NCBI RefSeq assembly: GCF_013402795.1
Contig: NZ_CP058595.1
Location: 1,027,501 to 1,091,500 of the forward strand
Direction of reading: 5' to 3'
DNA: 64,000 nucleotides
Origin: Costertonia aggregata
Lineage (GTDB): Bacteria; Bacteroidota; Bacteroidia; Flavobacteriales; Flavobacteriaceae
Shown here piece by piece: positions 15,637-42,044 of the stretch; position 1 is the first letter of the stretch; every line of letters begins with the position of its first letter. The notes below the pieces were generated by a model, which ran no database searches, had not been told where the DNA came from, and saw only the letters and a list, made by a program, of their open reading frames with translations. Position numbers and translations under genes: made by a program.

Positions 15637-15642
15637 CTTTCG

Positions 15643-15867: not shown

Positions 15868-16013
15868 AAACTCGTAAAATACTTCCATCAAAAGACTACG
15901 GCATAAAGCCAACGCTTCATCCCATACTTATTTATTCCGTTTCCTTTTGAGCCAAGATTTTATCTTCCGTTTGGTTCCTGCTTAAATATTGTTTAATCTA
16001 AAATTTGAGTATT
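15868..16013 (+). repeat. Leader repeat, copy 1 (upstream of the ParB-like gene)
   Basis: About 145 bp immediately before the parB-like ATG recur, diverged, at 17930-18064 before the next small gene. Shared blocks include AAACTCGTAAAATAC, CCATCAAAAGACTACGGC, TTTATTCCGTTTCCTTTTGA and AAATATTGTTTAA. In both copies the repeat ends exactly at an ATG (16014 and 18065), which argues that it is a 5' leader or promoter region used twice. Confidence 0.75.
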
Positions 16014-23111: not shown

Positions 23112-23456
23112 ATGAGTACTATTAGAAATCACGTACAGTTGATTGGAAACGTTGGACAAGAGCCAACCATCACGAACCTTGAAAGCGGTAAGAAAGTAGC
23201 CCGCTTCTCACTCGCCACGAACGAGTATTACAAAGACAGTAAAGGCGAAAAGCAAACAGACACCAACTGGCATACCGTTGTGGCTTGGGGCAAGACCGCT
23301 GAAATCGTTGAGAAATATGTCGAAAAAGGCAAAGAAGTTGGGATTACGGGAAAACTAAAGACCCGAACCTACACCACGGACGATGGAAACCAACGCTATG
23401 TTACCGAAGTGGTAGCCGATGAAATCCTTTTACTTGGAAGTAAGAGCGATAAGTAA
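23112..23456 (+). CDS. ssb: Single-stranded DNA-binding protein
   Basis: A 114-residue OB-fold protein with typical SSB segments: NHVQLIGNVGQEP at the N terminus, ARFSLATNEYYKDS, TNWHTVVAWGKTAEIVEKYV and GKLKTRTYTTDDGNQRY. It ends at LLGSKSDK and lacks the acidic DDDIPF-type tail used by chromosomal SSB to recruit partners. Short SSBs are common in ICEs, where they coat transferred single strands. A strong terminator follows. Confidence 0.95.
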   Translation: MSTIRNHVQLIGNVGQEPTITNLESGKKVARFSLATNEYYKDSKGEKQTDTNWHTVVAWGKTAEIVEKYVEKGKEVGITGKLKTRTYTTDDGNQRYVTEVVADEILLLGSKSDK

Positions 23457-23467
23457 ACCTAGAGATT

Positions 23468-23506
23468 AAAGAGGGCGTAACCGTCGAAAGATGCGCCCTC
23501 TTTTTT
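23468..23506 (+). terminator. Terminator after ssb
   Basis: AAAGAGGGCG pairs with CGCCCTCTTT over a 16-base loop, followed by six T residues. Confidence 0.85.
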
Positions 23507-23534
23507 CATTATTCAAATCTTAAAAATTAAAACA

Positions 23535-23915
23535 ATGAAAGCACAAGTTAACGAAATAAAAGAAAATTTACAGACGTTTAGCGGTACTGATTTCTTCTAC
23601 CAAATTCCGCTTTTAAAAACTCGTTTTACGGATGGATTGAAATATCTATCGGAAGTAGCAGAATGTTTTTGGCTTATTACGGATGCTTCCGTAATTGCAA
23701 AAAGTCTGATGAACCGAAGCGAATTTATCACTATCGATTTTAAAAGGTTGCCCGAAGAAAGACAGGATTATTCGGGTTACGAAGCCGAAATAATTTACAG
23801 CGATGGGAACGATAACATTTTAAAAAAACACGGCTATCGTGCTACCGATTTTCCACTTGATGAACTGCGGTTGTTTTTTGTAAATGATACGCTGATGTTA
23901 CCAAGTGAATATTAA
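23535..23915 (+). CDS. DUF6876-like hypothetical protein
   Basis: A 126-residue soluble protein beginning with a helical NEIKENLQTFSGTDFFYQ segment and containing RFTDGLKYLSEVAECFWLI. This pattern matches what I remember of the DUF6876 family carried by Bacteroidota mobile elements; the function is unknown. It is followed after 11 bases by another small gene and a shared terminator, so the pair is one transcription unit. Confidence 0.75.
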   Translation: MKAQVNEIKENLQTFSGTDFFYQIPLLKTRFTDGLKYLSEVAECFWLITDASVIAKSLMNRSEFITIDFKRLPEERQDYSGYEAEIIYSDGNDNILKKHGYRATDFPLDELRLFFVNDTLMLPSEY

Positions 23916-23926
23916 AATCTATCGCT

Positions 23927-24124
23927 ATGGTATATCTCAATTTTACAGACTTGAGCGAGGAAGCTCAAAACCGACTTTTGGAAACGTCCAAAGAAGATGT
24001 GAAACGAAAATTTGGGGATAGCATTCGCAAATACGTAAAAGAAAATTATGGCTGTTTTGATACGTTGATAGAGGAAGAAGCACTTAGAAATTTATATTCC
24101 TATACCTACGTTTTCAATATATAG
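23927..24124 (+). CDS. Small hypothetical ICE protein
   Basis: A 65-residue, highly charged helical protein (begins MVYLNFTDLSEEAQNRLLE). It has no signal peptide, membrane segment or motif that I recognise. It shares a transcript with the preceding gene and ends just before a terminator hairpin. Confidence 0.65.
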   Translation: MVYLNFTDLSEEAQNRLLETSKEDVKRKFGDSIRKYVKENYGCFDTLIEEEALRNLYSYTYVFNI

Positions 24125-24146
24125 TTTTCAGCAAAAATGAATCAAG

Positions 24147-24173
24147 CACCTCTAAAATTTCAGAGGTGTTTTT
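24147..24173 (+). terminator. Terminator after the small ICE genes
   Basis: CACCTCT (24147-24153) pairs with AGAGGTG (24162-24168), followed by five T residues. Confidence 0.8.
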
Positions 24174-24210
24174 GTGTATAATTAAACCTACATCAAGAAA
24201 AAATTACTAT

Positions 24211-24422
24211 CTTTATTTCGCTGAAATTCAGCATTTAAAATAAAGTAAGGTTATCCACTTTTCGACTTTCGCCGATACCCTTACACATCGAAAAATAACA
24301 TATCGGAAAATCATTTTCCCTGAAAATGGCAATTGGCTTTTTAGCCGGATTGTATGGATTTTCGTCACGCTTGCGCGTGACGAAAAGGAATAGCAAGAGG
24401 GTAACGGGCTGCGCCGCGTTAC
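24211..24422. other. Candidate origin of transfer (oriT)
   Basis: This gene-free stretch lies directly upstream of the mobilization genes and is packed with dyads. There are nested repeats CTTTATTT/AAATAAAG around GCTGAA/TTCAGC (24211-24245), CATTTTC/GAAAATG (24312-24328), a perfect 12-bp stem TTTTCGTCACGC with loop TTGC (24359-24386) and GTAACG/CGTTAC (24401-24422). Relaxase nick regions in Bacteroidota elements usually lie upstream of the mob operon next to inverted repeats, so this is the best oriT candidate in the window. Confidence 0.5.
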
Positions 24423-24568
24423 ATATTCCATTTTCATTTTAATCCATTGATATTTAATTAGTTAATAACAATCAGGATTTAAAATTTCCAACAATTTGCG
24501 TCAAATAGTCTTGGAACACCAGTAAACAGGGATGGATTTACGTCAAATCTTTAAAAAAGCGAAAGGAA

Positions 24569-24949
24569 ATGGATTCATTCATCACTATCAGGTTCAAACG
24601 AAAAACTGCCAAGCGGTTTCAGGAATTTTCCAAAATGCATTTTAAAACGCACACCGAAGCGATGGAAAACATCCTTGATTTCTTTCTCTATAACGAAATT
24701 TCCCCAAGGGAAAAATTAGGACCAACCGGACGTACTATCGAGGCTAAATTGCTCAAAAGAATCAATGCGGTCATCGCCATAATGCGTGATGTAGAAAAAA
24801 CCCAAACCAAACCTACGGTCGCAATGTTGCAATCCCTTTTTGTGATGGAAGAACCTAACAAAAAGCCATTGATAGTTGAAAAGAAATATGCCGAAGAAAA
24901 GAAAGAAGTACGCTTTCGAGAAAGCGATAACCCGAACAATCAACTTTGA
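24569..24949 (+). CDS. BfmA/BtgA family mobilization protein
   Basis: A 126-residue basic protein. The N-terminal ITIRFKRKTAKRFQEFSK segment resembles ribbon-helix-helix DNA-binding accessory proteins, and the whole sequence fits the BfmA/BtgA relaxosome family of Bacteroides elements. It would bind oriT and help the relaxase, encoded immediately downstream. The start ATG lies 147 bp after the last dyad of the oriT candidate. Confidence 0.82.
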   Translation: MDSFITIRFKRKTAKRFQEFSKMHFKTHTEAMENILDFFLYNEISPREKLGPTGRTIEAKLLKRINAVIAIMRDVEKTQTKPTVAMLQSLFVMEEPNKKPLIVEKKYAEEKKEVRFRESDNPNNQL

Positions 24950-24960
24950 AATTTCCAGCG

Positions 24961-25992
24961 ATGTACATCACAATAACACCCCAAAAGATGGGCGGTAATT
25001 TTTCCAAAAGTTCGGCAGATTTTGTTGGGTATTTAGAGAAAGAAAATCAAGGTCTGGAACAACAGGATATGGAACATTTTTTCAATCAATATGGCGATGA
25101 GATTTCTGCTGAGGAAGTCATTAAGGAAATTGATGGGAATACCGCAAAACTGGAAAAACACGAACCAAGATTCTACTCAATTACCGTGAGTCCTTCAAAA
25201 TATGAATTGCAAAAACTTCAGAACAGTAGCGAAGATTTAAAAAAATATACTCGTGAACTGATGAAAGATTATGTGGCTTCATTCAATAGGGAAATCAAAG
25301 GGAGACCTGTTAATATCGATGACATAAAGTACTATGCAAAAATAGAGCATCAACGCACCTTCAAGGGAACAGATTTTCAGGTAAAAGAGAACCAACCGTA
25401 TGCCACCAAAATTCTTCAGCTCAAAACCGAAATCCGAAACGTTCAGGAAGGACGAGCTGAAGGGAATATTAAAAGGATGAAAAAGGAAATCGCCAAACTG
25501 GAATACCAAGCACCACATCATCAAAACGGAAAACGCATTGTCCAGGGAATGCGAAAAGATGGAAACCAGAGCCATATCCATATTATCGTGAGCCGTAAGG
25601 ATGCGTCCAACAGATTCAGCTTATCGCCAGGAAGCAAATACAAAGCATCCGACGTGAAGTTGAATGGGCAAACCGTAAAACGAGGATTTGACCGAGATGA
25701 ATTCTTTAATAATGCAGAAAAAACTTTTGATAAGACTTTTGGCTATAAACGAAACTTTGCCGAGACCTACAAAGCCCGAAAGGATTTTGTAAAAAATCCC
25801 AATCTCTATTTCGCTGCCTTGATGAAATTACCAGCTAACGAAAAGGCCTTGGCTTTCAAAATGATAGCAAAGACCGGATTGCCGATAGTGCCAAATATTC
25901 CAGTTAGTCAAACACAGATTGCACTTCGAGTTCTTAAGCGGTTGAGACGTGGTGCTGAAATAGCAATTAAATCGAGTTCCATAGGAATATAA
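24961..25992 (+). CDS. Relaxase/mobilization protein (MobB/BtgB type)
   Basis: The protein (343 residues from ATG 24961) has the HUH-type metal-binding motif in SHIHIIVSR (His205 and His207), an early YSITVSPSKYE segment with candidate tyrosines, and GYKRNFAETYKARKDF in the C-terminal third. It should nick oriT and stay bound to the transferred strand. A TTG at 24946 would add five residues and overlap bfmA by four bases; I prefer the ATG. The coupling-protein gene follows after 5 bases. Confidence 0.85.
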   Translation: MYITITPQKMGGNFSKSSADFVGYLEKENQGLEQQDMEHFFNQYGDEISAEEVIKEIDGNTAKLEKHEPRFYSITVSPSKYELQKLQNSSEDLKKYTRELMKDYVASFNREIKGRPVNIDDIKYYAKIEHQRTFKGTDFQVKENQPYATKILQLKTEIRNVQEGRAEGNIKRMKKEIAKLEYQAPHHQNGKRIVQGMRKDGNQSHIHIIVSRKDASNRFSLSPGSKYKASDVKLNGQTVKRGFDRDEFFNNAEKTFDKTFGYKRNFAETYKARKDFVKNPNLYFAALMKLPANEKALAFKMIAKTGLPIVPNIPVSQTQIALRVLKRLRRGAEIAIKSSSIGI

Positions 25993-25997: not shown

Positions 25998-27578
25998 ATG
26001 CAGATAGATGACCTCATAACGACACTTTCAATTATTGGTCTGGCCAGTATTGTTTTCTATGCGATGTTTCGGGTAAGTAGGTACGCATTCATCGTTAATT
26101 TTCTGGTGCTTGGTGCGATGGTGTTTTACTTAAACAAGGAAAATGCATTGACTCTTATTGCCCTATATCTGGTTTGCCCTCTCATATTAATTAACATAGG
26201 AATGTACGTGTTCCTGCACAAAACGGATAAACCTAAAAATGGCGATAGCAAATATCAGGTCAGCTTTGCCACCACCAAAGGAAATTTCAAATTGGATAAC
26301 ATCAAACGAGGTGCATCCATAATCGGTTCCGCTGGAAGTGGTAAGACCGAAAGCGTTGTGTACGGATTTTTGAAACACTTCCAGAAAGAAGGGTTTTGCG
26401 GAATTATCCACGACTATAAGGATTTTGAACTGACCGAAATGGCGTATCCACTTTTCAAGGATAGCGATATTCCGTTTAAGGTCATTTCCTTTGATAAAAT
26501 CATCCATAGGGTAAATCCTATTGCCCCACGCTATTTAGAGAACGAGGAAAGCGTTAATGAGGTATCGCGGGTATTAATCGAGAACCTTTTAGAACAAAGA
26601 GAAAGCGGAACAACTGGCACAACAAAATTCTTTAATGATGCAGCTGAGGGATTGATTGGTGGTTTGATTTGGAAATTGAAAACTGACTATCCTAAGTATT
26701 GTACGCTACCTCATTTAATAGCCATTTATCAATTGTTGGACACCGATAGTCTTATACAGTTTTTGGAAACCAATACCACTTCACGAGCGATGGCAGATGC
26801 TTTTATTAGTGGTAAGGATTCGGATAGGCAGACCGCAGGTGTAAAAAGCACCCTGGCCAATGCGCTAAAGCGAATTAGCACACAACGCATTTTTATGGCA
26901 TTATCGGCAGATGAAGTGCCGTTAAATATAAATAGTGAAGATAATCCTGCAATCATTTCCGTAGTGAATAATCCAAAATATGAGACTTCTTATTCACCCG
27001 TAATTGCCACTATAATTCATACCATTACCAAACAAATGAGCGTACGAAATTCTAAATCATCATTCTTGCTAATGGAAGAAGCGCCTACCATTCGATTATT
27101 GAATATGCATCGCATTCCTGCAACTTTGAGAAGCTATGATATTGCCACTATCTACGTAATGCAAGATAAAATTCAGAATGATATGATGTATGGTGATAAG
27201 GCAAGTAAAGCTATTTTAAGCAATTTATCTTATCAGTTTTTCGGAAAGGTCAACGACCCAGACACAGCAAAATATTATGAGCGTTTTTTTGAAATAATCA
27301 AGGATCCAACTAAAAGTATTAGTCGTGGTCATAATCTAGATTTTGATACACGAATTACAACAGGCGAAAAGGAAATCCCCAAGATTAGAGCAAACATATT
27401 TTTTAGATTGAAACAGGGCGAGTTTATAACCTATGCCGATGGGAAAGATAAGAAGGTACAGTTTAAGTTACAATCTATCAAACGAGAACTTCCGACAGAA
27501 TCTAACCAGTTTTCTCAGGCAGATTTAGAGGCTAATTTTGAGAGGGTTTATGATGAAGTGCGGTCGATATTCAGATAA
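25998..27578 (+). CDS. Type IV coupling protein (VirD4/TraG-like ATPase)
   Basis: A 526-residue membrane ATPase. Two to three hydrophobic segments fill the first 75 residues, the Walker A motif is GSAGSGKT (110-117) and a Walker B-like segment is SFLLMEEAPTIRL. It links the relaxosome to the mating channel and pumps DNA. The gene ends the mob operon. Its last 28 bases before the stop region are duplicated 5 kb downstream, with a diverged remnant of the C terminus. Confidence 0.9.
   Translation: MQIDDLITTLSIIGLASIVFYAMFRVSRYAFIVNFLVLGAMVFYLNKENALTLIALYLVCPLILINIGMYVFLHKTDKPKNGDSKYQVSFATTKGNFKLDNIKRGASIIGSAGSGKTESVVYGFLKHFQKEGFCGIIHDYKDFELTEMAYPLFKDSDIPFKVISFDKIIHRVNPIAPRYLENEESVNEVSRVLIENLLEQRESGTTGTTKFFNDAAEGLIGGLIWKLKTDYPKYCTLPHLIAIYQLLDTDSLIQFLETNTTSRAMADAFISGKDSDRQTAGVKSTLANALKRISTQRIFMALSADEVPLNINSEDNPAIISVVNNPKYETSYSPVIATIIHTITKQMSVRNSKSSFLLMEEAPTIRLLNMHRIPATLRSYDIATIYVMQDKIQNDMMYGDKASKAILSNLSYQFFGKVNDPDTAKYYERFFEIIKDPTKSISRGHNLDFDTRITTGEKEIPKIRANIFFRLKQGEFITYADGKDKKVQFKLQSIKRELPTESNQFSQADLEANFERVYDEVRSIFR
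27545..27572 (+). repeat. Direct repeat at the end of the coupling-protein gene (copy 1)
   Basis: Twenty-eight bases starting GGGTTTATGATGAAGTGC are identical to 32519-32546. The two copies flank the cargo block that runs from the Crp-like gene to the DUF4386 gene. Confidence 0.85.
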
Positions 27579-27750
27579 GATACTACTAACAGTCAAAAGC
27601 GAAAAAGCAATTTTCTTCTTACATTTTTTAACGGATTATTTTAACTTTAGCGTCATTTATTAAGAGGTTTTTCAAGATATAAAGTTGGTTGAAAAGTATG
27701 TTTTGTTGTCATAATTAATTAACCAAAATTGAAAGTATTATTTTAAAGAT

Positions 27751-28311
27751 ATGGGCAACGCAGTAGTTAAATATTTGAACCAGAACGGCACCTATTCTAC
27801 AAACGAATTAGAGCTTTTAGAAGAAGCCCTTGAATACAAAACCTTAAACAAAAATGACTTCGTACTCAAAGCTGGCGAAATATGTGATAGTGTTGGCTTC
27901 GTTACCAATGGGTCTTTTTTCCAATACAAATATGATGATAATGGCAATACCATAGTTTCTGATTTTTACATTGAGAGTGATTGGGTCATCAATACAAAAA
28001 GTTTCACTTCACAAAAACCATCCGAGTACAATATTCAAGCTTTTAAGAAGTCTTCCATCTATTTCCTTTCCATCGAGTCCATCCACAGCTTAATTGCTAA
28101 ATCCCAGTCCTTTTTGCAAATGGGGAAAGTTTTGGAAGCGGGCAATTCGAGTAACACATTTTTTAAAGACCTTAAAGCACCTGATGATAAATATGCCTTG
28201 CTATTAAAGGAACGACCTGAAATCATCAAGAGATTTCCACAAAAGCTCATTGCATCGTATCTTAATATAACACCAGAAACCCTCAGTCGGGTTCGCAAAA
28301 GGTTAAAGTGA
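27751..28311 (+). CDS. Crp/Fnr family transcriptional regulator
   Basis: A 186-residue protein with a cyclic-nucleotide-binding-like beta barrel (about 30-115, with LKAGEICDSVGFVTNGSFF) and a degenerate C-terminal helix-turn-helix (KLIASYLNITPETLSRVRKRLK). Such short Crp-like proteins without clear cAMP-contacting residues are common in Bacteroidota. It precedes a membrane protein gene by 67 bases and may regulate the cargo block. Confidence 0.88.
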   Translation: MGNAVVKYLNQNGTYSTNELELLEEALEYKTLNKNDFVLKAGEICDSVGFVTNGSFFQYKYDDNGNTIVSDFYIESDWVINTKSFTSQKPSEYNIQAFKKSSIYFLSIESIHSLIAKSQSFLQMGKVLEAGNSSNTFFKDLKAPDDKYALLLKERPEIIKRFPQKLIASYLNITPETLSRVRKRLK

Positions 28312-28378
28312 TTTCTTGATTTCAATCAAGTGTCAGCAAGACTCATTCCATTGATATTTGTTTTTAAAAATAAATCCA

Positions 28379-29020
28379 ATGGAAAAACACTATTTCAAAA
28401 GTACAGGTATCTCACTTATTTCAGGTGCCTTGCTCATTATTCTAACAATGGTATTGCATCCTTCAGGTGGTAGCATTGAGCATATCATCAAAATTTCAAA
28501 GACCATCACCATCGCCCATTCCCTAGCCATTTTTAGTTTGCCCATATTGTTGTTTGGATTTTACGGACTTACATTAAGGTTGATGGACAAGTGGAAATTA
28601 TCCTTTCTCGGATTCATCATTATCGCTTTTGGGCTTATTGCTGCAATGTTCGCCGCATTATTTAATGGCTTGACCTTGCCGTATTTTCTAAACCGATATG
28701 CTGATAGGTTAGAACAGAATATCGAAACCTTAAAGCCTATTACAAACTTCAGCTTTGCTGTGAATGTTCCTTTGGACTACATTTTTATTATCGCCTGTTG
28801 TTTGTCTATTTTGATATATTCACTCATTATCTTATTCGAAGGCAAGATGCCAAAATGGATTGGTTACTTGGGTATTTTCATAACACTCTTCTCGATTGTT
28901 GGTGGCTTAACGGATTTTGTCTTTACCAGTTTAACAGGCTTTAGAATATTCACGTTTAGTATTGCAGCTTGGGTTTTATCGAATGGAATCTGCCTCATAA
29001 AATTTGGTAAGGAAAAATGA
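28379..29020 (+). CDS. Multi-pass membrane protein, unknown function
   Basis: From ATG 28379 (MEKHYFKSTG) the 213-residue protein has about six hydrophobic helices, the first in ISLISGALLIILTMVL and the last in FTFSIAAWVLSNGICLI. I do not recognise the family with certainty; it resembles the DUF4386-like small integral membrane proteins. It overlaps the next gene by four bases (ATGA), so translation is coupled. Confidence 0.78.
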   Translation: MEKHYFKSTGISLISGALLIILTMVLHPSGGSIEHIIKISKTITIAHSLAIFSLPILLFGFYGLTLRLMDKWKLSFLGFIIIAFGLIAAMFAALFNGLTLPYFLNRYADRLEQNIETLKPITNFSFAVNVPLDYIFIIACCLSILIYSLIILFEGKMPKWIGYLGIFITLFSIVGGLTDFVFTSLTGFRIFTFSIAAWVLSNGICLIKFGKEK

Positions 29021-29556
29021 AAATTCTAATATTCGGCGCATCTGGTTCCGGTACAACAACAATAGGAAAAGAATTCGCTAAAAGAACAGGCTATGCCCAT
29101 TTAGATGCCGATGATTACTACTGGAAGAAAACCGACCCGCCATTTCGAGTAAAAATTCCCTTAGCCGAGCGCAATACAAAACTAAAGGCGGATTTTAACA
29201 ATAATAAAAATGTAGTATTGAGCGGGTCAATGGTAAGCTGGGGAAAGGAATGGGAAACTTCTTTTGATTTGGTTGTTTTTATCGAATTGGATAGTGAAGA
29301 ACGAATACAAAGATTAAGACAACGAGAAAGGGAACGTTATGGTAGTCGGCTATTAAGTGATGAACAAATCAAGCGAAATTCTGAGGACTTTTTGAACTGG
29401 GCGAAACAATATGAAAATCCTGATTTTGAAGGAAGATCACTTAAGGTTCATAATAACTGGATAGGGCTACTAAATTGCCGAGTGATGAGAATTGATGGGT
29501 GTTTAGAGTTAAACGAAAAACTTGAAAAGATTCTGAGTAATCTCAATGCTATATGA
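29017..29556 (+). CDS. Adenylate-kinase-like P-loop ATPase
   Basis: A 179-residue P-loop protein. The Walker A motif is GASGSGTTTIGKEFA (8-22), then LDADDYYWKK and an ERIQRLRQRERERYG lid-like arginine cluster. This is the layout of small nucleoside or nucleotide kinases of the AAA_18/topology-modulation type. The phosphate acceptor is unknown. It is coupled to the upstream membrane protein gene by an ATGA overlap. Confidence 0.82.
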   Translation: MKILIFGASGSGTTTIGKEFAKRTGYAHLDADDYYWKKTDPPFRVKIPLAERNTKLKADFNNNKNVVLSGSMVSWGKEWETSFDLVVFIELDSEERIQRLRQRERERYGSRLLSDEQIKRNSEDFLNWAKQYENPDFEGRSLKVHNNWIGLLNCRVMRIDGCLELNEKLEKILSNLNAI

Positions 29557-29618
29557 TTACTTAGGAAAGCGATAGTGACTGATAGATTTTATAATTAAAT
29601 TATGACTGAATACGGACA

Positions 29619-30302
29619 TTACTTTAGTAGGACACCCAAGGAATTATATAGATTCTTGCTGCCTTTTGATGTAATAATGACCTCTCTTGAAAATTCAACC
29701 TTTTTTAGCCAGTTTTTCTGTAGCATTTTCTCTAAAAGAACTGCACCTAAATGTCCGGCGAGATGTACTCTACGTTCTGACCAATCGAGACATTGTCGTG
29801 TTAACGGTCGGCGACTTTCTACAAAACTTACTTTTGAAATATCTAGCAACGACAACCATTTCCATCCTGTTTCAGTGACAGAATATATGTTTTCAGAAGG
29901 GATTAAAAATCCTCTTTCAACCAAAGTGTCGGTCATTTTCACGCCAACATAACCTGCAAGATGGTCATAACAGGTACGGCAATACCTCACACCAATTTTA
30001 GGTGGCTCATCCAATGTGGTAGCTGACGATTTATTAGCTAAACTTGCCAATGATTCAACTACATAAGCAACTTCGGCATTTGCAAAAGAGAAGTATCTGT
30101 GTCTTCCCTGAACATCCACTTTTACAATATTACCCTTGAGTAATTTAGACAAATGGTTGCTAACAGAACTTGCAGATAAATCAGCGGTCAGTGCTAGTTC
30201 GCTTGCTGTGTATGCACGTCCGTCAAGCAAGTTCCACAGAATTTTAGCTCTTGAAGGTTCACAGAGTAATGAGGTGACTGAAATAAAATGGTTGCTTTCC
30301 AC
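29619..30302 (-). CDS. ArsR family winged-helix transcriptional regulator
   Basis: A 227-residue protein with an N-terminal ArsR helix-turn-helix (SEPSRAKILWNLLDGRAY is written here as CEPSRAKILWNLLDG, then TASELALTADLSASSVSNHL) and the wing sequence VDVQGRHRYFSFA. A C-terminal half of over 100 residues contains YCRTCYDHLAGYVGV, where two cysteines and a histidine could bind a metal or act as a redox switch. It is divergent from the ACT/OsmC genes, which it probably represses. Confidence 0.88.
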   Translation of the reverse strand: MESNHFISVTSLLCEPSRAKILWNLLDGRAYTASELALTADLSASSVSNHLSKLLKGNIVKVDVQGRHRYFSFANAEVAYVVESLASLANKSSATTLDEPPKIGVRYCRTCYDHLAGYVGVKMTDTLVERGFLIPSENIYSVTETGWKWLSLLDISKVSFVESRRPLTRQCLDWSERRVHLAGHLGAVLLEKMLQKNWLKKVEFSREVIITSKGSKNLYNSLGVLLK

Positions 30303-30331
30303 TATTCATTATAGAATGAAATATAAAGGTA

Positions 30332-30345
30332 GTAAATCTGTTTAC
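30332..30345. promoter_or_regulatory. Putative ArsR operator (GTAAA-N4-TTTAC)
   Basis: A perfect 5-bp dyad, GTAAA-TCTG-TTTAC, lies in the 67-bp region between the ArsR gene and the divergent ACT-domain gene. It directly precedes TTACTTTG, a near-match to the -7 box. The same GTAAA...TTTAC dyad (3-bp spacer) occurs before the genes at 33551 and 36332. Confidence 0.45.
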
Positions 30346-30369
30346 TTTGTGATAAATTAAAACTGGTAA

Positions 30370-30783
30370 ATGAAAGACATAGAAATTTTATTAGGGAATA
30401 AGCCCGGACAATTGGCCCTTATGGGCGAGACTTTAGGAAAAAACAAAATCAGTCTTGAAGGTGGTGGGGTTTTCAACAATGGAAAGAATAGCGTAGCCCA
30501 TTTTTTGGTGGAGGATGCCGAAAGGGCAAAAAAAGAACTAGAAAATGCTGGAATCAAAGTCATAAAAACAAGTGATGTAATCATCCAGAAACTTAGACAG
30601 GATGTACCTGGTCAGTTAGGTGCTTTTTGCAGAGAGCTCGCAGATGCCAATGTTAATATTCTGACACAGTACAGCGACCATTCCAATCAATTGATTGTAG
30701 TTGTTGATAAGTATGAGGAAGGAAAACGTATTTCTGAAGCGTGGATGAAAAAATGGTGGAACAACGATGATTACGTGATATGA
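30370..30783 (+). CDS. Tandem ACT-domain protein
   Basis: A 137-residue protein made of two ACT-like halves, each starting with a GQL segment (NKPGQLALMGETLGKNKIS at the N terminus and VPGQLGAFCRELADANVN from about residue 76). ACT domains bind amino acids or similar ligands and regulate enzymes. With no catalytic domain attached, this is probably a stand-alone ligand sensor. It overlaps the OsmC gene by four bases and is divergent from arsR. Confidence 0.82.
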   Translation: MKDIEILLGNKPGQLALMGETLGKNKISLEGGGVFNNGKNSVAHFLVEDAERAKKELENAGIKVIKTSDVIIQKLRQDVPGQLGAFCRELADANVNILTQYSDHSNQLIVVVDKYEEGKRISEAWMKKWWNNDDYVI

Positions 30784-31253
30784 AAAAACAACATAATTAT
30801 TCAGCTACCATTGAATGGACAGGAAATTTAGGCCGAGGTACTTTAAATTATCGGGCATTTGAAAGAAGCCATAGTGTTTCAGTAGAAGGCAAACCATATA
30901 TGTTGTGTTCCTCAGACCCAGCCTTTAGAGGCGATAATACAAAGTATAATCCTGAAGAACTTTTGCTGGCCTCTCTATCATCGTGCCATATGTTATGGTA
31001 TTTGCATCTGTGCGCTGAAAATGGTATTGTAGTAACCGATTATGTTGATAAAGCAAAAGGGACAATGCTTGAAAGTGTGGATGGAAGCGGTCGTTTTGAG
31101 ACAGTCAACTTATACCCGAAAGTAACTGTTCTCGAGAAGTCTATGATAAAAAAAGCAGAAATACTTCATAAGAAAGCGAATGAAATGTGTTTCATCGCTA
31201 ACTCAGTAAATTTTGAAGTGTTTCATCATCCCAAGATTTCGATAGAGGAATAA
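30780..31253 (+). CDS. OsmC family protein
   Basis: The 157-residue protein has the OsmC/Ohr fold with PEELLLASLSSCHMLWYLHLC (slightly over-long motif; the first cysteine is in SLSSCHM) and the second conserved cysteine in NEMCFIANSVNF. The two cysteines are the peroxide-reactive pair of the family, so it probably detoxifies organic hydroperoxides. It is translationally coupled to the ACT protein and under the likely control of the ArsR regulator. Confidence 0.9.
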   Translation: MKKQHNYSATIEWTGNLGRGTLNYRAFERSHSVSVEGKPYMLCSSDPAFRGDNTKYNPEELLLASLSSCHMLWYLHLCAENGIVVTDYVDKAKGTMLESVDGSGRFETVNLYPKVTVLEKSMIKKAEILHKKANEMCFIANSVNFEVFHHPKISIEE

Positions 31254-31295
31254 TAAAAAAAAATGAAATCAGGCAACCATTCTTAAATTTATTAC

Positions 31296-31313
31296 GTCTC
31301 TAATTGTAGAGAC
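31296..31313. promoter_or_regulatory. Perfect hairpin/operator upstream of the membrane protein pair
   Basis: GTCTCTA-ATTG-TAGAGAC is a perfect 7-bp dyad with a 4-bp centre, ending 23 bp before the ATG at 31337. There is no T run, so an operator or leader hairpin is likelier than a terminator. Confidence 0.45.
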
Positions 31314-31336
31314 AAACACTAAAACCAACCAAACCA

Positions 31337-31750
31337 ATGTTAGAAAACCCAAAAGTCAACATCAAAATCAAATTGGCAGCCCTTTGGGCATCTGTGACCT
31401 TTTGCTATCTCTATGGCGACTACTTTGAACTTTATACACCTGAAAAGGTGGATAGTCTTATTACTGGACAGAATATATTAGACAGTCCAACAAAACTATT
31501 GGTAGCTTCCATTATTCTGGCCATCTCTTCTGTAATGGTGGCGGCATCTGTTCTTTTAAAACCTAAAATCAACCGAATCTTGAACATCGTTTTCGGAAGT
31601 TTCTTTACGCTGATGATGCTCTTTATTGGATTCAACTCAATGACCGAATGGTATAGTTTCTATGTGTTTCTGGCCTTTGTGGAAAGCATCCTTACCTTTT
31701 TGATTGTTTGGTATGCCATTAAATGGCCAAAACAGCACGACAATGGATAA
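31337..31750 (+). CDS. Four-helix membrane protein, unknown function
   Basis: The 137-residue product has four predicted membrane helices (around residues 15-30, 55-75, 85-105 and 110-130). It may belong to the small DUF6326-like membrane proteins, but I am not sure. It overlaps the next gene by eight bases, suggesting joint translation. Confidence 0.72.
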   Translation: MLENPKVNIKIKLAALWASVTFCYLYGDYFELYTPEKVDSLITGQNILDSPTKLLVASIILAISSVMVAASVLLKPKINRILNIVFGSFFTLMMLFIGFNSMTEWYSFYVFLAFVESILTFLIVWYAIKWPKQHDNG

Positions 31751-32450
31751 AGAAAAAGCAGCAAGAAACAAAACAGCACGTCTGGGTGGATTGCTCTATT
31801 TGCTTCTCGTCATTTGTGGTTTGGTTTATCTGGTATATGTACCGTCACAATTGATTGTTTGGGATAATGCCGAAACTACATTGGTTAACATCCAGAAATC
31901 CGAGGGTTTATTCAAGATTGGAATCCTTGTGGCCATTTGTTCATTTATCATCTTTATGTTATTGCCATTGGCTTTGTATAGATTATTGAGTCAGGTAAAC
32001 AAAAAAGTCGCATTTTTAATGGTGCTGTTTGCGGTGGTCAGCGTGCCCATTTCTTTTGTAAATATTTTGAACAAATTCACGATATTGGACTTAGTTCAGA
32101 AATCTAAAGGTTCGGGTATTATTGACGTAATCCCGGCAGACCAGGTACTATTCCATCTTGAGCAGTACAGCAACGGACTTGAGGTGTTGCAGGTTTTCTG
32201 GGGACTTTGGCTTTTGCCTTTTGGATATTTGGTCTATAAATCGGGTTTTCTTCCAAAACTGCTCGGTGTATTGTTGATGGCAGGATGCTTTGGCTACTTG
32301 GTAACTTTTACTGGTGGATTTTTAGTTGAGGACTTCTCAAAAACAACTCTTTCGAGCATCATAGGTATTCCCGCTGCTCTTGGGGAAATTGGGATTGCGT
32401 TATGGCTTCTTATTTTCGGGACGAATAATATAGGGTATAAGAAAAATTAG
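31743..32450 (+). CDS. DUF4386 domain membrane protein
   Basis: From ATG 31743 (MDKEKAARNKTARLGGLLY) the protein has 235 residues and about six membrane helices. The N-terminal basic KTARLGGLLYLLLVICGL and the central PLALYRLL match the DUF4386 family, whose function is unknown. The upstream in-frame ATG at 31704 lies inside the preceding gene and is not used here. A remnant of the coupling-protein gene follows immediately. Confidence 0.85.
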   Translation: MDKEKAARNKTARLGGLLYLLLVICGLVYLVYVPSQLIVWDNAETTLVNIQKSEGLFKIGILVAICSFIIFMLLPLALYRLLSQVNKKVAFLMVLFAVVSVPISFVNILNKFTILDLVQKSKGSGIIDVIPADQVLFHLEQYSNGLEVLQVFWGLWLLPFGYLVYKSGFLPKLLGVLLMAGCFGYLVTFTGGFLVEDFSKTTLSSIIGIPAALGEIGIALWLLIFGTNNIGYKKN

Positions 32451-32463
32451 TTGATTCTACAGA

Positions 32464-32553
32464 ATTGAAAGGCAACTTCCCGATGATACCAAGCAGTTAT
32501 CTCAAGCTAATTTTGAACGGGTTTATGATGAAGTGCGGTCGATATTTAATTAG
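32464..32553 (+). pseudogene. C-terminal remnant of a coupling-protein gene
   Basis: Translated in frame, the segment reads IERQLPDDTKQLSQ-ANFERVYDEVRSIFN-stop. That matches the end of the intact coupling protein (KRELPTESNQFSQ then ANFERVYDEVRSIF) at 27578. It has no upstream partner sequence and no start. It shows that the cargo block 27579-32463 was inserted by recombination at the end of this gene, or that two related elements recombined. Confidence 0.85.
32519..32546 (+). repeat. Direct repeat at the coupling-protein remnant (copy 2)
   Basis: Identical over 28 bases to 27545-27572. It lies within the remnant and marks the right edge of the inserted cargo block. Confidence 0.85.
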
Positions 32554-32641
32554 CTTTTTATTTGACCCATAAGTTAAAAAATGGAGCAGAAGTTTTGGAT
32601 AGTTATTGCATTTAATTATTTTTCGGTCTAATTAACTATTA

Positions 32642-33457
32642 TTGATATTCAAATCCCATATTATACCTTCTCATTTATCGAAATACTTAGTCGATATAAT
32701 ATATCATAGGGATTTCCAACCAGCTCACAATAAAGATAGATACCTGCCTGACGGTACTATTAATATAGTATTTGAATTTACAGGCACACCTAAATACATC
32801 TACAAAAAAGGCACAGACGAGAAAATTCAAGAATGTAGAGACGTATGGTTCTCAGGGGTTCAAAAGAATTTTTTAACTATAAGCTCAGAAAGTGAAGAAA
32901 TGATGGTGATTGTGTTTAAACCAGGTGCTGGTTTTCCATTAATTCACAAATCAGTTTCCGAATATACAGATAAGGTGATACAGGCGGAAGGAGTTTTTGG
33001 ACCCAATATTAAGCAACTCTTTGAAACTTTAAAGGAATCCGAAAAAACTGAAGAGAAGTTTAAAATTGCAGAAAATTGGTTGGAAGAACAGTTGAGCGAA
33101 GATGATTTTTACACCAATATAATTCAATATGCCATAGACGCAATTGAAAATTCACCAACTCAAATTAATCTTAGCGAACTTTCAGATAAGTTGGGATATT
33201 CCCAAAAGCAATTTATCCAATTATTCAAAAAGTACGTAGGTATAACACCAAAACAGTTCCACAGAATAGTTCGCTTTAATGAAATTCTTACCGCAGTAGA
33301 GAATAAAGAAGAAATATCCTGGACCATAATAGCGGCAGATTGCGGATATTTTGACCAAGCACATTTTATCAAAGATTTCCAGTCTTTTTCGGGCATTAAC
33401 CCTAAAAAGTATATTAAGGATATCGAGGACTTCCCCAATTTTTTACCAGTCAAATAG
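32642..33457 (+). CDS. AraC family transcriptional regulator (TTG start likely)
   Basis: A 271-residue soluble AraC-type protein. The N-terminal domain (about 1-150) has the LPDGTINIVFEFTG segment typical of the DUF6597-type sensor. The C-terminal double helix-turn-helix shows INLSELSDKLGYSQKQFIQLF and IIAADCGYFDQAHFIKDF. The frame opens with TTG at 32642 and has no better ATG near the domain start. It lies just after the recombination scar and before a DUF1761 gene. Confidence 0.85.
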   Translation: MIFKSHIIPSHLSKYLVDIIYHRDFQPAHNKDRYLPDGTINIVFEFTGTPKYIYKKGTDEKIQECRDVWFSGVQKNFLTISSESEEMMVIVFKPGAGFPLIHKSVSEYTDKVIQAEGVFGPNIKQLFETLKESEKTEEKFKIAENWLEEQLSEDDFYTNIIQYAIDAIENSPTQINLSELSDKLGYSQKQFIQLFKKYVGITPKQFHRIVRFNEILTAVENKEEISWTIIAADCGYFDQAHFIKDFQSFSGINPKKYIKDIEDFPNFLPVK

Positions 33458-33477
33458 AACGTACTTCAAGCAGTAGG

Positions 33478-33524
33478 GTAAATTTTTTACAATTATTAAA
33501 GAGACGCTTCCCATTTCTTTGCGG
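33478..33524 (+). promoter_or_regulatory. Cargo promoter motif, copy 1
   Basis: The 20-mer GTAAATTTTTTACAATTATT (33478-33497) recurs exactly at 36264-36283. In both places it is followed after 19 bases by CTTTG, part of a -7-like box (here TTTCTTTG). The start codon at 33551 is 53 bases after the motif. The first 13 bases form the dyad GTAAA-TTT-TTTAC. Confidence 0.55.
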
Positions 33525-33550
33525 TGTATTAATCATTAAATCAAATTTTT

Positions 33551-33958
33551 ATGGAAACAATGTACATTAATCATATCGCAGTAGTAGTATGTGCGATATC
33601 AAACCTAGTAGTAGGTGCCCTATGGTATAGTCCGGCACTTTTCTATAAAGCGTGGAAAAAGGAAAATGGACTAACCGACGAGGATTTCAAAAACATCAAT
33701 ATGGGAAAGATGTATGGCATAAGTTTTATACTGGCTCTTATTATGTCTTACAATATGGCGTTTTTTCTTGGCGATTCAGAAACTGACTGGGTTTGGGGAA
33801 TTACCGCAGGGTTCTTAACTGGTTTTGGATGGTGTGCTATGATTTTCGCAGCTATTGGCTTGTTTGAAAAGAAATCGTGGAAATACATTCTAATCAATAG
33901 CGGATATATTATCGTTTACTTTACATTAATAGGTTTCATTCTTGGAATCTGGAGATAA
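33551..33958 (+). CDS. DUF1761 domain membrane protein
   Basis: A 135-residue protein with four membrane helices, starting with HIAVVVCAISNLVVGALWYSP and containing a central ISFILALIMSYNMAFFLG segment. This matches the DUF1761 family, of unknown function. The gene is preceded by the shared cargo promoter motif and followed by a TolB-like gene after 7 bases. Confidence 0.85.
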   Translation: METMYINHIAVVVCAISNLVVGALWYSPALFYKAWKKENGLTDEDFKNINMGKMYGISFILALIMSYNMAFFLGDSETDWVWGITAGFLTGFGWCAMIFAAIGLFEKKSWKYILINSGYIIVYFTLIGFILGIWR

Positions 33959-33965
33959 TACAATT

Positions 33966-34883
33966 ATGAAAAAGACACTTTATTTTATTCTAGCAACTAC
34001 ATTCAGTTTAGGGTGTAGTGCGCAACAGAAAATTGCATATAATGTTCTAGAGGATGCAGCAACTCAAGATTACGAAATCTACGTAATGGATACTGAAGGG
34101 AACAATAGTAAGAACATTTCCAATTCTAAATCTGTAGATTGGGTATATGATAGCTTTGGCGATAAAATTTACTTCCTTTCTGATAGAGGTGAATGCTTCC
34201 GGTGCTTCTATCTATATGAGATGGATTCTAATGGGAATAACCTCAGAAAAATTACAGATTTTAAATTGGGAGATAGCTGGTTAAGCACAAGAAACGAAGG
34301 AAAGGAATTTATAGTAAAACCTGCCGAAGCGGAAGATGCATCATTCTACATTATTGATTCTAAGGGAACAATAATAGAAAAAATAAAAGTTGATTTAACC
34401 TATGCAAATGACCCAACCTTTTCACCAAATGGAGAGAAGATAGTTTTTAGAGGTAGCGATAAAAAATCACCGAGAGAACTTGGTTTTACAGACGCATTGT
34501 ATGTAATGGATTTATCGTCAAAAAAGATGAAAAAAATCACTTCTCATCCTGATGAAAATGCTGGAAAGCAGTGGACAGGTTATTTGGCAGCAGCACCCAG
34601 ATGGAGAGCAGATGGCAAAATATCTTTTGCCTCAAAGAGAGACAACAATTATGATATTTATATCATTAATCCTGACGGTACTGAAATGACATCAGTAACA
34701 CCACTTGAGAATAACCAAGTTTATCATCATTGGAGTGCCGATGGAGAATTAATCTTTGAAGCTTCAATGAACAACCACAATGGCTATGAGCTATATAAGA
34801 GGACAAAAGATGGCAAAACTGTCCAACTAACGGAAGACAAAACAGAACAGTATGCACCGGTATTCGTTAACTCAAAGAAGTAA
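33966..34883 (+). CDS. TolB/PD40-type beta-propeller lipoprotein or periplasmic protein
   Basis: From ATG 33966 the product has 305 residues. The N terminus is a signal peptide with a possible lipobox (TFSLGCSAQ). The rest consists of PD40 beta-propeller blades, for example YEIYVMDTEGNN, LYEMDSNGNN, DPTFSPNGEKIVFRGSD and YDIYIINPDGTEM. Such proteins form protein-binding propellers in the periplasm; the partner is unknown. It overlaps the next gene by one base. Confidence 0.85.
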   Translation: MKKTLYFILATTFSLGCSAQQKIAYNVLEDAATQDYEIYVMDTEGNNSKNISNSKSVDWVYDSFGDKIYFLSDRGECFRCFYLYEMDSNGNNLRKITDFKLGDSWLSTRNEGKEFIVKPAEAEDASFYIIDSKGTIIEKIKVDLTYANDPTFSPNGEKIVFRGSDKKSPRELGFTDALYVMDLSSKKMKKITSHPDENAGKQWTGYLAAAPRWRADGKISFASKRDNNYDIYIINPDGTEMTSVTPLENNQVYHHWSADGELIFEASMNNHNGYELYKRTKDGKTVQLTEDKTEQYAPVFVNSKK

Positions 34884-35296
34884 TGGAAACTGTAGGATAT
34901 TCTAAAACACCTCTTTCAAAGAAGCTGGGGATAAAAGAAAAAATGAAGCTACTTACGGTTAACGAACCACGACCATATAAAGAATTCTTTTTTGAATTTC
35001 CGGATGCTGTTATCATAAATCCAAAACTTGAAAACCAAAGCCTTGACCTTATCCATATTTTCATAAAAACCAGAACAGAGCTTGCTGCCATTGTCAACAG
35101 AATAAAACCGCTATTAAAAAAAGAAGGAGTCCTTTGGGTAAGTTGGCCCAAAGGCTCTTCTACAATTAAGACAGAACTTAAAAGAGAACCTATTAGAGAT
35201 TATATCTTAAAAACTGGACTTGTTGACACTAAAGTGTGCGCAGTTGACTCGGATTGGTCTGGGCTAAAGTTTGTGTATCGTAAAGAAAATAGATGA
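34883..35296 (+). CDS. DUF3052 family protein
   Basis: A 137-residue protein with the GYSKTPLSKKLGIKEKMK signature at the N terminus, which is typical of DUF3052, and a C-terminal half with LKKEGVLWVSWPKGSS and DWSGLKFVYR. The function of the family is unknown; it is usually a small cytoplasmic protein next to regulators. The start codon overlaps the stop of the propeller gene. Confidence 0.85.
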   Translation: METVGYSKTPLSKKLGIKEKMKLLTVNEPRPYKEFFFEFPDAVIINPKLENQSLDLIHIFIKTRTELAAIVNRIKPLLKKEGVLWVSWPKGSSTIKTELKREPIRDYILKTGLVDTKVCAVDSDWSGLKFVYRKENR

Positions 35297-35299
35297 TTT

Positions 35300-35503
35300 A
35301 TGATAAAAAAGAAAAGCAAAACAAATCCACTAATTGCACCCATTCTTATGTGCGTTTTTACCGTTTTCGCATTTAAATTTGATAGTGAGGAAATTTATTG
35401 GCTTTGGGAACAAAAAACCGTTGTTCATATTCTACTTATCCAATCGGCAATATTCTTCGGATGTTTTGCTGTTTACATTAAGATTAAAGGAAAAAACAGA
35501 TAA
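35300..35503 (+). CDS. Small two-helix membrane protein
   Basis: The 67-residue product has a basic N terminus (MIKKKSKTNP), two hydrophobic helices (PILMCVFTVFAF and ILLIQSAIFFGCFAVYIKI) and a basic tail. No family is recognised. Spacing of 3 bases to the gene upstream and 27 to the racemase gene suggests an operon. Confidence 0.6.
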   Translation: MIKKKSKTNPLIAPILMCVFTVFAFKFDSEEIYWLWEQKTVVHILLIQSAIFFGCFAVYIKIKGKNR

Positions 35504-35530
35504 CAACTATAAACTTTCTTCAAAGCTCAT

Positions 35531-36226
35531 ATGAAAAAAATAGGATTAATAGGTGGTATGAGTTGGGAATCTACGCAAGTTTATTACCGAATAATAAATC
35601 AGTTGACCAGAGAGATTAAAGGGGGTCATCATTCTGCAAATTGTATTATCGACAGTTTGGATTTTGCAGAAGTAGAGAAATTTCAAAGTTCCAATAATTG
35701 GCAATCATTAAATGAAATGATGGCCAAATCGGCCAAAAATTTAGAACTTGCTGGCGCTGAATGCTTAGTTCTTTGTACTAACACAATGCACCTATGCAGT
35801 CCTTCGATAATCTCTCAAACTAACATTCCTTTTCTGCACATTGCAGAAGAGACTGGTAAAGCAATTTCTGAAAAAGGCTTAAAAAAAGTCCTTCTATTAG
35901 GAACCGATTTTACAATGAAAAGTCGGTTCTATTCAAAAATACTCAATGAAAATTTTGGAATAGAAGTGTGTATTCCAAACAATGAAGATAGAATAATAAT
36001 TCATCGTATAATTTATGAAGAGCTAGTGTTTGGAATCTTCACAATACAATCTAAGATTAAATACATCCGTATTATAGAAAAGGCAGTTGAGCTAGGCATA
36101 GAAGGTGTTATTCTTGGATGTACCGAAATCCCTCTTCTAATTAAGGATAGCGATATTAAGTTACCTGTTTTTGACACTACATATATCCACGCAGAAGCTG
36201 CCGTAAAGTTTTCAATCACTCAATAA
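35531..36226 (+). CDS. Aspartate/glutamate racemase family protein
   Basis: The 231-residue protein begins KIGLIGGMSWESTQVYY and has both catalytic cysteines of the cofactor-independent racemase fold, in LVLCTNTMH and ILGCTEIPLLI. It would interconvert L- and D-amino acids, most likely aspartate. It ends the cargo operon that begins with the DUF1761 gene. Confidence 0.92.
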   Translation: MKKIGLIGGMSWESTQVYYRIINQLTREIKGGHHSANCIIDSLDFAEVEKFQSSNNWQSLNEMMAKSAKNLELAGAECLVLCTNTMHLCSPSIISQTNIPFLHIAEETGKAISEKGLKKVLLLGTDFTMKSRFYSKILNENFGIEVCIPNNEDRIIIHRIIYEELVFGIFTIQSKIKYIRIIEKAVELGIEGVILGCTEIPLLIKDSDIKLPVFDTTYIHAEAAVKFSITQ

Positions 36227-36263
36227 TCACAGTCTGTCAAACCGGAATTTGCCATAGACTAAA

Positions 36264-36310
36264 GTAAATTTTTTACAATTATTTCTTTCCTGATAGCCAT
36301 TACTTTGTTG
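36264..36310 (+). promoter_or_regulatory. Cargo promoter motif, copy 2
   Basis: The exact 20-mer GTAAATTTTTTACAATTATT is followed after 19 bases by CTTTG, part of TTACTTTG, a near -7 box. The start codon at 36332 lies 48 bases after the motif. The same layout is seen at 33478. Confidence 0.55.
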
Positions 36311-36331
36311 TAAACAAAAACAAAAAGTACA

Positions 36332-36901
36332 ATGGCAAAAACATCTTATCAAATTGAACAAGAATTTATCAATGATATAAATTCAATAACAGGTAACGAC
36401 TTAAAATCCTGGTTAAAAATTATTGGGGAAACAAGCCTATCTAAACGCAATGAAATTTTGAACTGGTTAAAATCAGAGCATAATTTCAGACATCAAGATG
36501 CTTCACTACTTGCTGGAATCTATGTCAATGATGGCAAACCTGTCTATGCCGATTCAGGTGACCTATTAGAAAACCAGTTCAATAAGAAAGAACACCTAAG
36601 ACCGCTTTATGATACTTTGATGGAAGCGATACTCAAACGACTTCCCAATACCCGTATCGAAGCAAAGAAAACTTATGTCTCGCTCAATGCGAAGCGAGAA
36701 TATGCAGCTATCGGTATCAAGTCGAAGGAAATCCGCCTGGCAATGGATTTGGATGGTGAACCCAACGGTAGTGATTTTGTAAAACAAACCGGCATTGGTT
36801 GTATGCCACGGATTTCACATATGATAAAACTCAACCAGGCATCCCAGATTACGGACAACCTTTTGGATAAGATGGAAAAGGCGTATAAACGAATGGAATA
36901 A
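36332..36901 (+). CDS. DUF4287/DUF5655 protein
   Basis: A 189-residue protein with two parts: an N-terminal helical DUF4287-like region (LKSWLKIIGETSLSKRNEIL then WLKSEH) and a C-terminal DUF5655-like domain (LRPLYDTLMEAILKRLPNTRIEA as a shortened motif, then KTYVSLNAKREYAAI). Function unknown; the C-terminal domain is sometimes found in proteins that bind nucleic acid or small molecules. It is followed by a DinB gene after 11 bases. Confidence 0.82.
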   Translation: MAKTSYQIEQEFINDINSITGNDLKSWLKIIGETSLSKRNEILNWLKSEHNFRHQDASLLAGIYVNDGKPVYADSGDLLENQFNKKEHLRPLYDTLMEAILKRLPNTRIEAKKTYVSLNAKREYAAIGIKSKEIRLAMDLDGEPNGSDFVKQTGIGCMPRISHMIKLNQASQITDNLLDKMEKAYKRME

Positions 36902-36912
36902 TTCATCTGACT

Positions 36913-37377
36913 ATGGAAACACAACTATTAGAAACCTGGCAAATTCAAAACCAGCTTAACCTCTACTTGCTTGAGAGTATAGACGAAGCAGATTTAGATG
37001 CTGAAATGACGAGTAAAGGACGCTCAGTTTTTAAGCAATTCGCTCACATTAATAATGTCCGATTGATGTGGCTTAAAGAAGCTGCACCAGAAATTTACAG
37101 TAGTGCGCACAAAATTGAAATGGACAGCAATCCATCTAAGGAACTGCTTCAAGAGACACTGGCGACGACAGGTGAACTGATATTGATGTTATTATCCAAA
37201 GGCATAGCCGAAAACCGTATCAAAGGTTTTAAACCACATCCATTGGCCTTTTTGGGTTATTTAACGGCACACGAAGCGCATCATCGAAGTCAGATAATAA
37301 TAGCCCTTAAACAAATTGGAAAACCAGTTGGCAAAAAAATCGGTTTTGGATTATGGGAATGGGGCACTAAAATTTAA
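36913..37377 (+). CDS. DinB family protein
   Basis: A 154-residue four-helix protein. The histidine-rich metal-binding positions are in FAHINNVRLMWL and TAHEAHHRSQIIIALKQIG, the typical DinB/YfiT triad. Members act as metal-dependent thiol transferases or damage-inducible proteins. Its stop lies 4 bases before the sialidase-like gene. Confidence 0.88.
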   Translation: METQLLETWQIQNQLNLYLLESIDEADLDAEMTSKGRSVFKQFAHINNVRLMWLKEAAPEIYSSAHKIEMDSNPSKELLQETLATTGELILMLLSKGIAENRIKGFKPHPLAFLGYLTAHEAHHRSQIIIALKQIGKPVGKKIGFGLWEWGTKI

Positions 37378-37381
37378 GAGT

Positions 37382-39084: not shown

Positions 39085-39160
39085 TTTCCAACAGGTACTT
39101 TAATTCACCTTTTTGATTGGTCAAATAGTATTTCGACCTGACTTAAAAACATATTTTAAA

Positions 39161-42037: not shown

Positions 42038-42044
42038 AATGACT

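Follow-up and report, generated by a model that had tools for sequence, protein, structure and literature searches.

The question raised by this locus is why the 3' end of a conjugation gene should be present twice, some 5 kb apart, when only one of the two copies belongs to a complete gene. The locus lies in Costertonia aggregata, in a stretch of 64,000 nucleotides (the window; positions 1027501-1091500 of contig 1 of the single-contig, 3.91-Mb genome) that holds most of one integrative and conjugative element (ICE), and the gene in question is that of the coupling protein (CP), which lies between the mobilization (mob) genes and the cargo of this element. Our answer, which we consider somewhat more probable than all its rivals taken together, is that the second copy is the stub of a displaced CP that stayed in place as its mob module gave way to another one carrying cargo. 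It builds on what can be observed directly, namely the remnant itself, its divergence from the local gene, the conflict between the trees of the mob and transfer (tra) modules, and the recurrence of tails, and not heads, behind intact CP genes in related elements.

The coupling-protein gene and its remnant

The features on which the argument turns are the following, in window coordinates; genomes and loci are cited throughout by their G and L handles.

25998-27578, + strand: intact VirD4/MobC-like CP gene, an open reading frame (ORF) of 526 amino acids with TrwB_AAD_bind and T4SS-DNA_transf above the Pfam cut-offs
27531-27571, + strand: 41-nt core at the 3' end of the CP gene, with a 28-nt exact run inside (repeat search, shuffle control)
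27751-32450, mixed strands: cargo stretch 1, between the intact CP gene and the remnant (ORFs, Pfam)
32458-32553, + strand: remnant of the CP tail with 31 sense codons plus stop, a 12-nt in-frame deletion and no start codon
32506-32546, + strand: second copy of the 41-nt core (repeat search)
32642-40597, + strand: cargo stretch 2, behind the remnant, starting with AraC, DUF1761 and PD40 (TolB-like) genes (ORFs, Pfam)

The two cores form a direct repeat of 41 nt that is 95% identical, at a spacing of 4,975 nt. Their longest exact common run is 28 nt, compared with 8-15 nt when the downstream 6 kb were shuffled 200 times by a first-order Markov model, and an earlier note on this DNA, which had described a remnant of the C terminus of the CP with 28 identical bases 5 kb downstream of the gene, is in this respect borne out, with 31 codons. 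Read in frame, the remnant gives YRIERQLPDDTKQLSQ, lacks four codons, and continues with ANFERVYDEVRSIFN and the stop; the 12 nt that it lacks are found in intact CP genes, and its reading frame is kept. Recognizable CP codons start 7 nt after the stop codon of the DUF4386 gene that ends cargo stretch 1. An in-frame stop lies just 5' of the remnant and no ATG, GTG or TTG precedes the tail in that frame; having no start codon, the remnant is presumably dead. The possibility that it is part of some other gene was rejected. Namely, a DNA query covering 32440-33470 was run against 299 genomes of the family, and all 29 of the matches from other genomes that cover the remnant sit at the 3' ends of CP genes, in line with its earlier description as a scar of the CP gene.

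The remnant had also been described as diverged upstream of the 28 bases, and so it is: compared with the local CP gene, 27 of 42 nt are identical upstream of the core and 39 of 41 within it. Intact tails rarely show such a contrast: of the 1,897 pairs that had diverged to a similar degree upstream (non-independent pairs from 95 tails, some of which are one ICE under two handles), 1.3% reach 39 of 41 and 1.3% have a 28-nt run. Because GAAGTGCGGTCGATATT also terminates the intact CP tails of L011 and L010, the 28-nt run may represent either a conversion tract or a common variant shared between tails, and it is no proof of a recent duplication.

Recurrence of coupling-protein tails in related elements

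Is such an arrangement peculiar to the window? At least six ICEs, the window included, have an intact CP gene, then intervening DNA, then a CP tail (the window, L057, L075, G030, G094 and G100). In a comparison of CP genes with their own flanks at 92 loci (94 loci with a full CP, minus L001 and L002, which duplicate the window and sister genes; some loci may be the same ICE entered twice), three strong repeats were obtained, and in every one of them the second copy lay downstream in the same orientation and matched the 3' end of the gene: 41 nt in the window, 76 nt at 89% identity in L057 (Galbibacter orientalis) and 352 nt at 82% in L075 (Aequorivita sp. CIP111184). The remaining rows of this search had E values of 0.005-0.008. 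Behind the Aequorivita tail, L075:15581-21221 looks by eye like restriction-modification cargo, with a DNA-methylase-like protein of 531 amino acids.

Across the 299 family genomes, C-terminal or near-C-terminal CP pieces without the rest of the protein are present in at least eight, the best candidates having been scored in each genome (at most 4 for CP, 7 for MobB, 3 for TraG and 8 for traN), which makes the counts lower bounds; two CP tails of the window's own genome are absent from the CP matches listed. Some of the tails lie behind an intact CP, at a distance of about 0.4 kb in G030 and in G094 and about 9.1 kb in G100, and others have no intact CP nearby (G013, G049, G140, G212 and G269; a full CP is present elsewhere in G049, on another contig, and in G212, at a distance of 39 kb). 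A decayed CP tail at locus L007 of the window's own genome brings the latter kind to at least six. One genome, G224, has a middle-only piece, and G024 and G003 have middle matches that are short or distant; no head-only CP piece is among the matches listed for these genomes. As controls, MobB and TraG were searched in the same 299 genomes. Among close MobB pieces there was one head each in G144 and G173, one middle each in G173 and G102, and no tail; the rest were distant homologues in pieces. For TraG, distant matches aside, there were two heads, one in G256 and one in G202 where a contig starts, and a single tail in G088. The traN pieces are also C-terminal (G162, G199, G030, G013 and G173 among the matches listed), and these are biased, because the C-terminal half of traN is the conserved half. 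An intact traN precedes one of them (G199:C27:144177-144593) by 6.2 kb on the same strand, an arrangement that may be a mirror scar.

The solitary tails look like leftovers of decayed elements. In the 13-19 kb fetched around those of L112-L116, no other ICE gene was found with 24 query proteins. IS21 genes lie 150 nt before the tail of L116 (G140), and at L114 a piece of ICE leader sequence is followed by the CP tail. The tail at L115:8777-9586 begins about 80 nt from the 3' end of a transfer-messenger RNA (tmRNA) gene, which is a usual integration site. Around the L115 and L114 tails, a search for repeats of tRNA or tmRNA ends that might bound an element gave nothing convincing, with no second tmRNA end in 18 kb at L115. 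CP fragments of two genomes, the tail of L113 and the middle piece of L117, lie near the same chromosomal gene cluster, and the tyrosine integrase of L117 is 53% identical to that of L007.

Module ancestry and the origin of the remnant

The remnant occupies the variable slot between the mob and tra modules, across which the 3' ends of the CP gene and traN converge. From CP to traN this slot measures 1.8-9.8 kb (median 4.8 kb) in the 52 of 80 named loci in which traN is visible; in the other 28, the slot is longer than the fetched stretch or the contig ends. Two candidate features of the slot were rejected. Namely, a search of the 80 named loci with two integrase queries for an integrase close behind the CP gave matches in five loci, all of them upstream of the CP stop codon, and the post-stop stretches of the intact CP and of the remnant, searched for conserved sequence, gave short, weak matches only.

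Do the modules on the two sides of the slot share one history? In a tree of MobB and CP (870 columns), the window groups with G284/G101, and in a tree of TraG, J, K, M and I (1,784 columns) it groups with G189/G172/G201/G021, each with a support of 100 in the Shimodaira-Hasegawa-like approximate likelihood ratio test (SH-aLRT); both trees comprise 28 ICEs that were picked for likeness to the window and not at random. The approximately unbiased (AU) test rejects the swapped groupings, with p of 0.0008 for mob and 0.025 for tra. Over the 299 genomes, the TraG of the window is closest to those of G201, G021, G189 and G172, its traN, among the matches listed, to those of G172 and G189, and its MobB and CP (the latter among the matches listed) to those of G284/G101. 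As read from these trees, the conflict shows that the mob and tra modules changed partners somewhere between the CP and the tra genes, which is where the remnant is located.

A prediction, fixed before the motif test, was that the remnant should resemble the CPs of the tra lineage. Its IERQ motif is present in 2 of 78 scored CP tails, those of G201 and G172, both in the tra group (the motif rule was applicable to 78 of the 94 distinct CP proteins, and the other 16 were dropped). In a search against 81 distinct CP genes, the local CP came 20th of the 86 match rows for the remnant, and by amino-acid score it reached 21 of 29, compared with 23 of 29 for the best two, L009 and L142 (G201). These results agree weakly with the remnant belonging to the G201 group. 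The earlier note had concluded that the remnant came from a related but different element and not from a recent simple duplication; this is likely here, where the local CP is not the nearest relative, but it does not hold in general. In particular, origin from a different element cannot be assumed, because four of the six tandem tails have the adjacent CP gene as their nearest relative.

If the remnant is indeed the stub of a displaced CP, the ancestor would have been an ICE of the G201/G189/G172/G021 tra lineage with a mob module of its own, whose CP ended where the remnant ends and was followed by cargo stretch 2 and then by the tra genes. A related mob module, the one now resident (25998-27578 and upstream), would have come in together with cargo stretch 1 or its start. 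The exchange on the left was probably homologous and fell somewhere in the mob region, while the join on the right would lie inside the old CP, sparing only its last 31 or so codons, and was probably non-homologous, because the junction is only 7 nt behind the DUF4386 stop codon.

The eight genes that the earlier note counted between the copies are indeed there, as eight ORFs, one of them, the ArsR-like gene, on the minus strand. Seven have names from Pfam (cNMP-binding/Crp-like, AAA_18, ArsR-type HTH, ACT, OsmC, DUF6326 and DUF4386), and for the remaining one, with a product of 213-220 amino acids, no Pfam match was obtained. The idea that they form a discrete cargo block had to be given up: the 4.9-kb stretch is whole in its own genome only, out of 249 searched, and its pieces 392-1401, 1437-1920, 2075-3678 and 3691-4835 match separate places elsewhere, on which ground it was rejected as a single unit. 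A search for ICEs in which the gene at 32642 directly follows a CP ending like the remnant, proposed in the same note, gave no case; the AraC, DUF1761 and TolB-like genes do co-occur in other genomes, and the 4-kb loci fetched there contain no CP.

A number of points weigh against displacement of an older CP. Neither a donor with cargo stretch 1 behind a G284-type CP nor an ancestor without cargo stretch 1 was found in the 249 genomes, and the two cargo stretches do not differ in G+C content (36.9 vs 37.0%). The trees are quick ones (LG+G4, no bootstrap), and the groups put to the AU test were taken from identity tables of the same data. What is more, G284/G101 are also near the window in the tra tree, together with G093 they precede G201 among the traN matches listed, and the conflict could equally well mean that the G201 group, and not the window, swapped its mob module. 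As for the remnant itself, only 29 residues are comparable, L142 (G201) shares the top amino-acid score with L009, a locus outside the G201 group, and overall likeness does not single out the tra group; in DNA, the closest upstream halves are those of L068, L045 and L032, with 34 of 42 nt each. Finally, intact CP tails appear mosaic among themselves, and later exchange may therefore blur the signal of the remnant.

How, then, do other explanations compare? The end of the CP gene may have been duplicated locally, with or without an insertion sequence, with cargo inserted or captured between the copies and the second copy decaying afterwards. The tandem cases elsewhere speak for such an event and against displacement: the tail is nearest to the adjacent CP in G100 (94%), G030 (93%), G094 (87%) and L075 (82%), in G100, gene and tail have an IS110 transposase between them, and a fragment in the corresponding place in G030 resembles TnpB by eye. 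These neighbour-like tails (loci L075, L109, L110 and L111) fit exchange between close ICEs or local duplication. In the window, however, the differences of the remnant match other lineages (IERQLP..TK) and do not seem to be random decay, and none of the eight intervening genes has a Pfam match to a transposase or integrase family; we regard local duplication as unlikely. Less likely again is a tail-to-tail crossover, in which a circle released by another ICE of the gene-cargo-tail kind, with a truncated CP tail and cargo stretch 1 on it, would have entered by a single homologous crossover in the 41-nt core, the product being an intact gene, cargo and a partial tail. The 28-nt run fits such a crossover or a conversion tract, with GAACGG on its left as in L038, L100, L102 and L103 and its right side like the window, and the 20-mer GATGAAGTGCGGTCGATATT was found elsewhere in L011 only, among the loci compared. 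Yet informative sites are few and core variants are shared among intact tails (L010, for instance, has 17 nt of the 20-mer), and neither the circle nor a second ICE with the same cargo-tail junction was found.

Very improbable, in our view, is that a dying ICE lost its mob operon, with the CP tail as the edge of its selected cargo, and that a second ICE was fused to it later. Locus L007, where an integrase separates a CP tail from what is left of the mob genes (ssb, mobA and the start of mobB), has the appearance that such a loss would leave, as does L114 with its leader fragment before the tail, and the absence of tails among the close MobB pieces, all heads or middles, is also in its favour. 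Nevertheless, it would require two events in the window, and the solitary tails of L112-L116 stand without any other ICE gene in the stretches fetched. Returning to the displaced CP, one can take the argument a step further and regard CP tails as strata markers of a slot that grows one way by repeated mob-anchored module exchange, the order of the tails dating the cargo layers and the tails possibly serving as short homologies for later exchange of cargo; we consider this extension doubtful.

The host element and comparable processes

Judging from its genes and its ends, the host element is a Bacteroidetes-type ICE of about 58.7 kb at tRNA-Asp. In addition to the features given above, its layout includes the following.

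15642-15664, no strand: left end of the ICE, a 23-nt repeat of the tRNA-Asp 3' end (repeat search against the tRNA end)
23112-25992, + strand: remaining mob module, with SSB, two small genes, BfmA-type mobA and MobB relaxase (ORFs, family matches)
41666-48883, - strand: lipoprotein-like gene and tra module, with TraN, TraM, TraK and TraG by NCBIfam and the traN 3' end towards the slot

The length follows from the left-end repeat and from the tRNA-Asp and tyrosine integrase that lie about 10.4 kb beyond the right edge of the window (locus L119), where the integrase beside the tRNA (L119:9035-10255) has Phage_integrase, SAM_5 and Arm-DNA-bind_5 above the cut-offs. The order of genes is ParB-like, SSB, BfmA-type mobA, MobB relaxase, CP, cargo, RteC and the tra genes on the opposite strand, of which traJ, traI, traF and traE are named by gene order only. 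TraG matches the Bac_Flav subfamily TIGR03783 with 314.7 bits (cut-off 261.55), the relaxase matches NF041495 with 410.5 (cut-off 200) and the BfmA-type mobilization protein NF041200 with 83.3 (cut-off 24). TraN (117.8 vs 164.1), TraM (58.7 vs 172.45), TraK (90.9 vs 152.45) and MobC (165.8 vs 900) stay below the NCBIfam cut-offs, and the ICE therefore belongs to a diverged group. With its Bac_Flav TraG, MobB, BfmA-type mobA, RteC and tyrosine integrase at a tRNA, it resembles, by its NCBIfam and Pfam matches, the conjugative transposons and ICEs of Bacteroidetes (CTnDOT-like).

Two RteC genes are present in this one ICE, at 40768-41625 and 61265-62107, each far over the Pfam cut-off. The same ICE has a Dnd-like phosphorothioation cluster at 49983-57772 by PADLOC matches (DndC at 56105-57460, a DndD/PbeC-like protein at 54046-56115, DndE at 53655-54053), in which the protein of 52544-53638 matches PD-Lambda-5_A in its first part and two more genes have no PADLOC match. 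A second related ICE of the same genome (L006 and L008, G000:C1:1180001-1215000) has mob and tra DNA about 80-86% identical to that of the window, and its slot encodes a protein of 951 amino acids with a match to Ppl and weak ones to other AAA defence models; the flank search gave no second CP tail for its own CP gene. L007 (G000:C1:2395000-2414000) is a third, degenerate element, about 92% like the window from ssb to mobA, with 36 nt of mobB, an opposite-strand tyrosine integrase, more genes and the decayed CP tail. Stretches 18870-18994 and 15844-16006 of the window, near the ssb and ParB genes, recur in L007 at 91-93%, and parts of the leader region are also common to L057, L075 and L114.

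With what known process can displacement of the CP be compared? It most nearly resembles the sequential displacement of effector genes of the type VI secretion system (T6SS) in Vibrio cholerae, for which the authors propose a mechanism akin to homology-facilitated illegitimate recombination (PMC5361080). As described there, a homologous upstream part anchors the incoming DNA and the old gene is pushed downstream, while its displaced 3' end or a partner gene persists and records the order of events; in the window, likewise, what we take to be the 3' end of the displaced gene is retained downstream of the new one. The T6SS leftovers are immunity genes that may be useful, whereas here a dead conjugation-gene tail is left over and what travels is an ICE mob module together with its cargo. 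The orphaned 3' regions of Rhs loci, named in that same report (PMC5361080), are similar in having a constant 5' part and strings of displaced 3' ends, but those ends are variable and belong to toxin-type genes, with no ICE module boundary. Homology-facilitated illegitimate recombination itself has been reported in Escherichia coli conjugation, again with one homologous and one illegitimate end, though in a laboratory assay, with low efficiency to go by the title, and with no ICE cargo slot (PMC3240628). The general process is thus known; in the portions of the literature that our searches covered, we met no description of a mark of this kind that recurs and can be read at the boundary of ICE modules, and no published report of ICE coupling-protein remnants was found, which is no proof of absence.

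Gene content is often the only basis on which the gain and exchange of ICE cargo are inferred. A recurrent scar at a fixed position, formed in the cases seen by the 3' end of the same backbone gene, provides a direct sequence mark of module exchange and possibly a way of ordering cargo layers. It also means that short coupling-protein matches in genome surveys can be fossils rather than ICEs. For this family of elements, the recurring stubs may mark how related elements exchange parts and collect genes.

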